DNA of 64,000 nucleotides from Methanohalophilus mahii DSM 5219 (lineage in GTDB: Archaea > Halobacteriota > Methanosarcinia > Methanosarcinales > Methanosarcinaceae), in assembly GCF_000025865.1 (NCBI RefSeq), contig NC_014002.1:248001-312000 (forward strand). Direction: 5' to 3'. Below the pieces are notes generated by a model. The model saw only the letters and a program-made list of their open reading frames with translations. It ran no database searches and was not told where the DNA came from. This document shows positions 22,750-56,825 of the stretch, piece after piece. How positions within the stretch are numbered: the stretch's first letter is position 1; every line of letters starts with the position of its first letter. Position numbers and translations under genes: made by a program.

Positions 22750-23217
22750 TTAAAGCTTTCCTCTCAGGCGACCGTGTATATCGATCTCACCTTCTGATAT
22801 CCGGGTCGATGATATGGGCTTTTCATCCTCTGCCATGACATAGTCAATTTTGATAATTTCAAGTTGTTCTAGTCCATCCTGCCTGCGGAGTTTGTTTATT
22901 TTTTCTGCCACAGAATATGTTTCCGGGGATACCACAATATATCTGTAATCACCATTGACGGTGGTACCAAAAGGATCTTCCAGTTTTTCGATCTGGTAAT
23001 TTTTATCAGGAATGTTTAGGCTGGCAATATAATCTTCAAGCTGGCTGCGACGTGTAGCATAGGAGGGTATGTTCCTGTCCTTTTTCTATGCCATCGAGTC
23101 GGATGTGAGGCCGATGTCAAGTAAATCTCCCGCAGCGATCTCAAAGGCCCTGCGAAGAAGTTTACGATGGCCGTCATGGAGGTATTCGAAGGTGCCTCCT
23201 ACAGCAGTTTTTGGCAT
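22750..23217 (-). CDS. coaD: Phosphopantetheine adenylyltransferase with in-frame amber codon (probable pyrrolysine, residue 44)
   Basis: The enzyme adenylylates 4'-phosphopantetheine, the penultimate step of coenzyme A synthesis. Read from the ATG at 23217, the frame gives [17 protein letters not shown], with the nucleotidyltransferase HDGH motif at residues 14-17, then [13 protein letters not shown] follows at 23088-23086 (codon 44), and the frame continues as [20 protein letters not shown] and ISSTRIS (residues 135-141) to a TAA at 22750. Total is 155 residues, normal for the archaeal family. No frameshift is needed. The amber replaces a residue in a variable, often basic stretch after LTSD-x-M. 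Since pylT and pylSBCD lie in this window, UAG is likely decoded as pyrrolysine. Premature stopping would leave 43 residues, and no ribosome-binding site supports a restart at the in-frame GTG (22935). Confidence 0.88.
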
Positions 23218-52507: not shown

Positions 52508-53287
52508 TTACATAACAGCATAAATCATTGAAGCCACGCCAATCATCAGAGGTTCCATTACCAGATCGATTTCGTTCTTTTTCCCGATGTCTTCAGGTAA
52601 ACCACAGGGGATTCCAGGTGTGGATACGAGGCATCTTTCTGCCACCATGCCTTCTGAGATCGTGTTGGGGTTTGGTGTAGCCTCCAGGACCATGGAAAAC
52701 TTGTGTTTTTCTTCGGGGTCATAGGGTATGATGCCCAGTTCCTTGCGCGCTTTTTCCAGAGTTTCCCGATTTGGGTCATAGGCATACACATCGAAATCCT
52801 TTTTTACAAGATGTTGTGCCCCTGCATAACCCACTCTTCCCAGGCCGATTACAAGTATATCCTTCGAATCGGCATATTTGTAACGGGAGGCAATCTCCGC
52901 GTAAACCACACCGGTGCATACATGATTGGTTGCAATTTTGCCGTTTCTCATATTATGCGCAATAAAAATGTGGTCATCTGCCATCAATATTATATCGGCA
53001 TCACTGGAAACAGCTTCATAGTACCCGGTAACATCGGGATGCTCGGTTATATCACCATCAAGACCGAAATATTCGGTTATCGTAAGCAGGGATGACGAAA
53101 AATTGCTAATGATCCCATTGCCGGAAGTTATAGGCACAATCCCTACTTTTTCTCCGTCAAGAGTGGTGCTGTATATTTGTTTGCATATGTCAGCAATGTC
53201 CATTCCGGTTGCTTTTTTGATAGTATTGTTATTGTACTCAAGCTGTTTTGTAAGTCCTTCCAGATCTTGTGGTGTAAGTAGTGCCAT
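52508..53287 (-). CDS. pylD: Pyrrolysine biosynthesis protein PylD
   Basis: The last enzyme of pyrrolysine synthesis oxidises L-lysine-N-epsilon-3R-methyl-D-ornithine with NAD so that the pyrroline ring closes. The 259-residue protein has the Rossmann motif VIGLGRVGYAGAQ near residues 147-159 and the family N-terminus MALLTPQDLEGL. A strong GGAGGA ribosome-binding site precedes the ATG. It follows pylC by 13 bases. Confidence 0.96.
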   Translation of the reverse strand: MALLTPQDLEGLTKQLEYNNNTIKKATGMDIADICKQIYSTTLDGEKVGIVPITSGNGIISNFSSSLLTITEYFGLDGDITEHPDVTGYYEAVSSDADIILMADDHIFIAHNMRNGKIATNHVCTGVVYAEIASRYKYADSKDILVIGLGRVGYAGAQHLVKKDFDVYAYDPNRETLEKARKELGIIPYDPEEKHKFSMVLEATPNPNTISEGMVAERCLVSTPGIPCGLPEDIGKKNEIDLVMEPLMIGVASMIYAVM

Positions 53288-53300
53288 ATTTATCCTCCTT

Positions 53301-54383
53301 TTACTGCTTCATATCGGATTTGATGAGTTGAATTGCTTTTTTTCTTTTGTAACACATCTCATGCCGGGTAGCGCCAGTGCATATCAGGGTATAGGTTTGT
53401 CTTTTTCCCCTGCATTTGAATATTTCCAACCCGTTTGATTCATGGAATAGCCGGTAGTCATCACCGTCTGAAAGAACATGTTCCCCAACAGGGATAAGTT
53501 TCCCATCGACTGCCATCAGGTGCTCATAGTTACATTGTTTACCAACAGGAAGAGGTTTGTTATCCTTTATTTTTCCTGCAAAACTTCCCATTAGCCATTC
53601 GAGCAGGTTTACACCACCACTGTGATATACTACGGTAGGTGTCTGGCTGGGAAAACGTGCATCAATCTCAATAACCCGGATTCCTTCGGGGGAGAGTATT
53701 GCTTCCACATCCATGATTCCTTTAAGGTATAGATTGCTGGCCAGCAGATGTGTGATCTCCCTGAAAATTGGGTCAGTCTCCATCGGGGTGACCCGATGGC
53801 AATCATGTTCCTGGTCAATATGTACCTGTGTCTGCTGACCGATCATGAAATTGTTCCCGTCTCCCACCACTTCCAGTGAAACTACTGGTCCGGGTACATA
53901 TTCTTCAATGACCATCGAATCATCAATGTTTGCCAGTTCACTGTCGTTGTCAATTATGCGTGCCCCCTTACTGCTGCTCATGCAGGGGGGTTTCACAAAA
54001 TAAGGAGGATTTTGGGGTTTTTCCGAAGGAATGGGTATATCTATCGATTTGAAATATTCCTTTGAACGTTTTTTGTCCATGCTGGTATCATAAGCGGTAA
54101 AATCGAAAAGAAGGGGGCAATGTAGTTCTGGTTCTATTTTTTTCAAAAAGAGAAGGGTGTCAAGGTTTTCATTTGTCGGGATTATAGCATCTGAGTGGCG
54201 GGATAATTCTATGAGCCTTTCCGGCCTTTCTGTAATATCAAAGCAAAAATGTTCATCCACACAATTATGTATCAGTGGCTTGTTTTTCCTGTCGACCAGA
54301 TGTACCCGAATCCCGGATTTTCTGGCAAGATAAGCCACTTCGAAGCCCTGCAGTTTGCCCCCAATCAGACATATCGTTTTCAT
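53301..54383 (-). CDS. pylC: Pyrrolysine biosynthesis protein PylC
   Basis: This ATP-grasp ligase joins 3R-methyl-D-ornithine to the epsilon-amine of lysine. The 360-residue protein starts ICLIGGKLQGFEVAYLARK and has ATP-grasp motifs YFVKPPCMSSSKGA, VIEEYVPGPVVSLEV and IEIDARFPSQTPTVVYHSGG. The ATG begins one base after the pylB amber stop, so its expression depends on ribosomes ending or passing that codon. Confidence 0.96.
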   Translation of the reverse strand: MKTICLIGGKLQGFEVAYLARKSGIRVHLVDRKNKPLIHNCVDEHFCFDITERPERLIELSRHSDAIIPTNENLDTLLFLKKIEPELHCPLLFDFTAYDTSMDKKRSKEYFKSIDIPIPSEKPQNPPYFVKPPCMSSSKGARIIDNDSELANIDDSMVIEEYVPGPVVSLEVVGDGNNFMIGQQTQVHIDQEHDCHRVTPMETDPIFREITHLLASNLYLKGIMDVEAILSPEGIRVIEIDARFPSQTPTVVYHSGGVNLLEWLMGSFAGKIKDNKPLPVGKQCNYEHLMAVDGKLIPVGEHVLSDGDDYRLFHESNGLEIFKCRGKRQTYTLICTGATRHEMCYKRKKAIQLIKSDMKQ

Positions 54384-54384
54384 T

Positions 54385-56663
<2,279 letters not shown>

Positions 56664-56753
56664 TTACTCCTGCTATAGGGGCGACTTCTGATATCTACAT
56701 TTGTTGAGGTGTCTAATTTTGCAACATATCCAGACCGTCACTTTCTATTTTAC

Positions 56754-56825
56754 TGGCGGAAACCCCGGGAATCTAACCCGGCTGAATGGATCTAGAGTCC
56801 ATTTGATCTACCTGATCAGGTTTCC
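56754..56825 (-). tRNA. pylT: tRNA-Pyl, anticodon CUA
   Basis: The 72-base sequence runs from GGAAACC at 56825 to GGTTTCCGCCA ending at 56754, so the CCA end is encoded. The anticodon CTA is at 56795-56793 in a seven-base loop CTCTAGA. The anticodon stem has six pairs (AATGGA with TCCATT), and the T arm has GCCGGGTTAGATTCCCGG. The six-pair stem and short D-loop are the unusual marks of tRNA-Pyl. It reads UAG codons. TATA-like sequence lies near 56855-56864. pylS follows 97 bases downstream, so the two are probably cotranscribed. Confidence 0.97.

Follow-up and report, generated by a model that had tools for sequence, protein, structure and literature searches.

The coaD locus and the pyrrolysine genes

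The window, a 64,000-nucleotide stretch of the Methanohalophilus mahii DSM 5219 genome (NC_014002.1, positions 248,001 to 312,000), contained a coaD gene with an in-frame TAG and a pyl operon. The following features were identified, in window coordinates.

22750 to 23217, minus strand: coaD, archaeal phosphopantetheine adenylyltransferase (PPAT), 155 residues with the TAG counted as a residue
23086 to 23088, minus strand: proposed pyrrolysine (Pyl) codon, in-frame TAG at codon 44, a variable loop position
23089 to 23217, minus strand: coaD codons 1-43, encoding the HDGH nucleotide-binding motif; no amino acid difference among the 6 Methanohalophilus species compared
22753 to 23085, minus strand: coaD codons 45-155, encoding VVSPETY and ISSTRIS; of 11 codons private to the lineage, 9 are synonymous
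56754 to 56825, minus strand: pylT, tRNA-Pyl, anticodon CUA
55443 to 56657, minus strand: pylS, pyrrolysyl-tRNA synthetase (NF007083, 684 bits, cut-off 550)
54385 to 55446, minus strand: pylB (TIGR03910), with TAG as its natural end
53301 to 54383, minus strand: pylC (TIGR03909)
52508 to 53287, minus strand: pylD (TIGR03911)

The coaD frame starts at ATG, contains the TAG at codon 44 as its sole internal stop and ends at TAA. Its product matched the archaeal CoaD model NF001985 (E = 1.7e-56; 190.6 bits, cut-off 104) and contained both nucleotidylyltransferase motifs, HDGH and ISSTR. The PPAT structure of A. fulgidus (3do8) was also matched, by sequence (E = 1.8e-35) as well as by fold. The original prediction had placed a TAG at codon 44 (23088-23086) of a frame running without indels to 155 residues, and had named the motifs HDGH, VVSPETY and ISSTRIS; the translation agreed on each point, and alignment with the orthologs from five sister species showed no gap. 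Restart of translation after the TAG was considered and rejected, the in-frame candidates being only GTG 95, GTG 103 and ATG 128, which are too late for a fold.

The pyl operon (52508-56825) lies on the same strand as coaD, 29 kb away, close to the 30 kb at which a full pylT-pylSBCD set had been placed. All five parts were recognisable, and pylS, pylB, pylC and pylD each scored above the NCBIfam equivalog cut-off. The TAG end of pylB is also found in M. mazei, M. acetivorans and M. burtonii (PMC2933860). Read-through of this TAG (window 54265-54384) would extend PylB by 39 residues, across the start of pylC, and in the closest sister species (genome G032) the frame likewise stays open for a comparable tail of 39 residues. 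One aRF1 was found per genome, and a more distant relative in M. mahii is probably Pelota.

Pyl insertion is thought to be no more than Pyl-tRNA competing with the release factor, without need of an RNA signal (PMC9499178, PMC8211752). No stimulatory RNA element was found 3' of the coaD UAG, where folding was no better than in shuffled sequences (z = 0.76). In M. portucalensis, a sister species, mass spectrometry has measured Pyl at a UAG (PMC4928046), and an M. acetivorans reporter with an introduced UAG gave only 20-30% full-length product (PMC2933860).

Conservation and copy number of coaD

Codons 1-43 showed no amino acid change relative to the sister species. For codons 45-155, comparison with G032 gave about 19.5 synonymous changes (dS 0.34) and about 9.5 non-synonymous ones (dN 0.037), corresponding to a dN/dS of about 0.11, similar to that of other species pairs. 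The two private codons 3' of the TAG that were not synonymous encode conservative changes (V122I and F155L). So few non-synonymous changes would be unexpected under neutral drift along the whole branch (P = 1e-4 to 2e-3). The part of coaD after the TAG thus appears free of decay, as had been claimed from the window. The TAG occurs in one strain only and may postdate the branch, so that some of the downstream conservation may be older than the TAG; the conservation therefore bounds a recent loss, without excluding it.

A protein search of the whole genome with CoaD returned a single locus, with one TAG inside. Two further members of the Pfam nucleotidylyltransferase family were found, NadM and an RfaE-domain-like cytidylyltransferase, and a second CoaD, which the original prediction had named as evidence against it, was thereby ruled out in the M. 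mahii genome. Of the 112 family genomes, 104 contained CoaD, as did 85 of the 86 near-complete ones, and no other full-length CoaD among the matches in these 112 genomes contained an internal stop. Within the genus, coaD was full length in all 8 Methanohalophilus genomes; the TAG, private to M. mahii among the family genomes searched, was found in 0/7 of the others.

These data bear on the reading that coaD is a fresh pseudogene, CoA being obtained through an unrecognised enzyme or by uptake. A stop at codon 44 is what such a gene would show, but the interrupted copy encodes the sole PPAT of a genome whose near-complete relatives nearly all retain CoaD, and the substitutions beyond the TAG are mostly synonymous, with no indel.

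At codon 44, the nearest species use GAG, GGG or GGT. Homologs carry G, E, K, R, Q or N at this residue (the same set without E in the remoter ones), and in the predicted structure it falls in a low-confidence loop (mean pLDDT of 73 for block 41-50) behind the short helix 40-43. The description of codon 44 as lying in a variable stretch was therefore borne out. An origin from AAG or CAG had also been suggested, but the codons of the near relatives do not fit it; the amber probably arose by GAG to TAG on the M. mahii lineage, with GGG as the alternative ancestor. The loop is followed by a conserved basic residue that lies near the substrate in related cytidylyltransferases, and it is therefore likely that Pyl would be tolerated at this position.

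TAG as terminator and as in-frame codon

Gene ends were called by coding potential in 740 kb of the M. mahii genome (about 37% of the total). The 517 genes in this sample ended in TAA (231), TGA (281) or TAG (5). Four of the five TAG-closed frames, namely mtbB, a sensor kinase, ksgA and an NcsA-like gene, ran on in frame as coding sequence, which left pylB as the only natural TAG end among about 513 genes. In G032, TAG ends were found only at mtbB and pylB among 531 genes. Genuine TAG ends were commoner in both of the other genera sampled (G057, 4/60 genes; G073, 2/53 genes; Fisher P = 5e-4 and 0.024, respectively). Pyl archaea are known to avoid amber stops (PMC3941956).

Private interruptions were compared with G032 over 560 kb in contiguous blocks (472 aligned ORFs), which gave two clear cases in M. 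mahii, a TAG in coaD and a TAA elsewhere. Conserved genes privately interrupted by a stop are thus rare, and an excess of TAG over TAA and TGA is statistically unproven; because of this count, the argument leans instead on the scarcity of TAG ends and on ksgA. Many candidates also emerged when TAA or TGA was taken as a sense codon. Those inspected look like adjacent in-frame genes, and the raw counts are therefore unfit as a control.

The single-copy ksgA/rsmA gene, encoding 16S rRNA dimethyltransferase (L056:17876-18679, minus strand; genome 1057876-1058679), is privately interrupted by TAG at codon 230 of its 267. This codon is CAG or CGG in four near sister copies (CAG in the closest sister), and 37 conserved codons follow the TAG up to the normal end of the family.

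Further in-frame TAGs were observed in M. mahii. An NcsA/TtuA-like tRNA thiolation paralogue (L055:18938-19852, plus strand) has TAG at codon 256, where two sisters have CAG, and 48 codons beyond it that include the C-terminal Cys motif; a second, intact NcsA/TtuA-like paralogue is encoded elsewhere in the genome. A PAS/histidine kinase gene (L109:16476-19169, minus strand; 897 residues) contains one in-frame TAG with 622 codons beyond it, and may be the pseudogene that a published Pyl prediction lists for M. mahii (PMC3639795). A small protein of unknown function (L107:5167-5745, minus strand; genome 65167-65745) has TAG where the sister has CAG, and its 48 further codons are more diverged. 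A citrate synthase gene (L090:1486-2589, minus strand) has TAG at codon 61; among the other 7 genomes of the genus it was intact in 2, decayed to fragments in 4 and not found in 1. Private in-frame TAGs were also observed in G032. One falls at codon 102 of a Trm5-like tRNA methyltransferase gene (514771-515589), where M. mahii has TCG; another lies about 7 codons short of the end of the MarR gene (453914-454351) that neighbours coaD in divergent orientation.

Taken with these data, the sequence makes it highly probable that coaD is working, its UAG at codon 44 being decoded as Pyl to give a full-length CoaD of 155 residues, and that the codon is a neutral, lineage-specific substitution. We infer Pyl incorporation at this UAG, its efficiency and the essentiality of the gene. 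The amber would be tolerated because UAG is almost vacated as a stop in the genome sampled and would generally be read as sense. In the proposed course of events, UAG would first have been nearly vacated as a terminator in M. mahii and would be decoded efficiently by Pyl-tRNA(Pyl)CUA; TAG could then have drifted into the tolerant codon 44 of coaD, with no local RNA signal required. CoA synthesis, and hence growth on any substrate, would in this way have come to depend on pylTSBCD, a dependence that would be a consequence of the coaD amber and not its cause.

The original prediction had preferred read-through to a fresh pseudogene, and we concur. Some ambers may mark dying genes, as the decay of the amber-bearing citrate synthase to remnants in four sisters indicates, but for coaD the fresh-pseudogene reading is weakened by the downstream selection, the presence of coaD as a single copy in nearly all complete family genomes, the near absence of TAG ends and the private amber of ksgA, and we regard it as improbable. 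It is slightly less probable still that the TAG came from faulty sequencing or assembly, or from a mutation limited to the sequenced culture. Its absence from the other genomes of the genus would agree with this, but the genome is a finished single contig (2,012,424 bp), and several other private in-frame TAGs, including that of ksgA, are present, whereas random errors would also produce TAA and TGA. Least probable of all is read-through mostly by a near-cognate tRNA (Gln, Lys or Tyr), or a regulated UAG tying CoA supply to Pyl: the accepted competition between Pyl-tRNA and release factor (PMC9499178) could let read-through shift with growth substrate, but a cognate CUA tRNA and its own synthetase are encoded, and a codon private to one species, lacking conserved context or structure, argues against selected regulation.

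Beyond decoding of the coaD UAG as Pyl, we lean slightly towards a broader proposal, in which UAG has in effect been reassigned genome-wide in M. mahii, coaD and ksgA have since fixed UAG codons, and pylTSBCD, once an optional module for methylamine use, is required on any substrate, the organism having become naturally addicted to the 22nd amino acid. Against Pyl decoding of the coaD UAG stand the natural end of pylB at a UAG, the 20-30% full-length yield of the M. acetivorans reporter, the rarity of privately interrupted conserved genes and the lack of a structured element after the UAG.

Deletion of pylT in M. acetivorans abolished only growth on methylamines (PMC2933860). If coaD is read as proposed, M. 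mahii should not survive the same deletion, since it could no longer make CoA. A cultured organism would thereby make testable the old question of whether a recoded stop becomes irreversible once it has drifted into essential genes. Pseudogene calls based on UAG would also be unsafe in Methanohalophilus.

Comparison with known pyrrolysine proteins

Searches of the literature returned no relevant account of a Pyl residue in CoaD. Like known Pyl proteins, coaD has a single in-frame UAG where homologs have sense codons, a complete pylTSBCD set in the genome and selection downstream of the codon. The methylamine methyltransferases MtmB, MtbB and MttB have their UAG read through the same pylTSBCD machinery, for which a sister species provides mass-spectrometric evidence (PMC4928046), but their Pyl is conserved and catalytic, whereas the Pyl proposed for CoaD is private and lies in a variable loop. 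The coaD UAG is not conserved among orthologs, as it would be in the catalytic class; being private to one species, it would therefore be of the neutral kind known from Thg1.

The original prediction had presented Pyl in a housekeeping enzyme as a departure from the methyltransferases; its application to coaD was supported, but its novelty was overstated in view of citrate synthase and Thg1. The citrate synthase of M. mahii (Mmah_0479), annotated as a pseudogene, was proposed to contain Pyl by the authors of the genome in 2010 (PMC3017947). It shares with coaD the genome and the amber codon, but, intact in only 2/7 of the other genus genomes, it may be dispensable, whereas coaD is full length in 8/8. 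On sequence grounds, the Pyl proposal for citrate synthase is weaker than that for coaD, because only fragments of the gene are left in four sister species.

M. mahii may also be compared with the archaea that, according to Kivenson et al. (Science, 2025), reportedly use a 'Pyl code' in which every TAG codon is sense. It fits this description by its scarce TAG terminators and by ambers scattered in ordinary genes, but differs in that pylB keeps TAG at its natural end.

A close likeness is to Thg1, the tRNA-His guanylyltransferase of Methanosarcina acetivorans, in which Pyl was observed, was dispensable for activity and was ascribed to neutral evolution (PMC2933860). Thg1 and coaD are both conserved non-methyltransferase genes with a private in-frame amber. 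They differ in that the Pyl of Thg1 was shown experimentally while that of CoaD is predicted from sequence, and in that CoaD, encoded by one gene copy, is a cofactor enzyme on which CoA metabolism is founded. Neutral Pyl residues are thus already known, and coaD would extend them to a single-copy cofactor enzyme.
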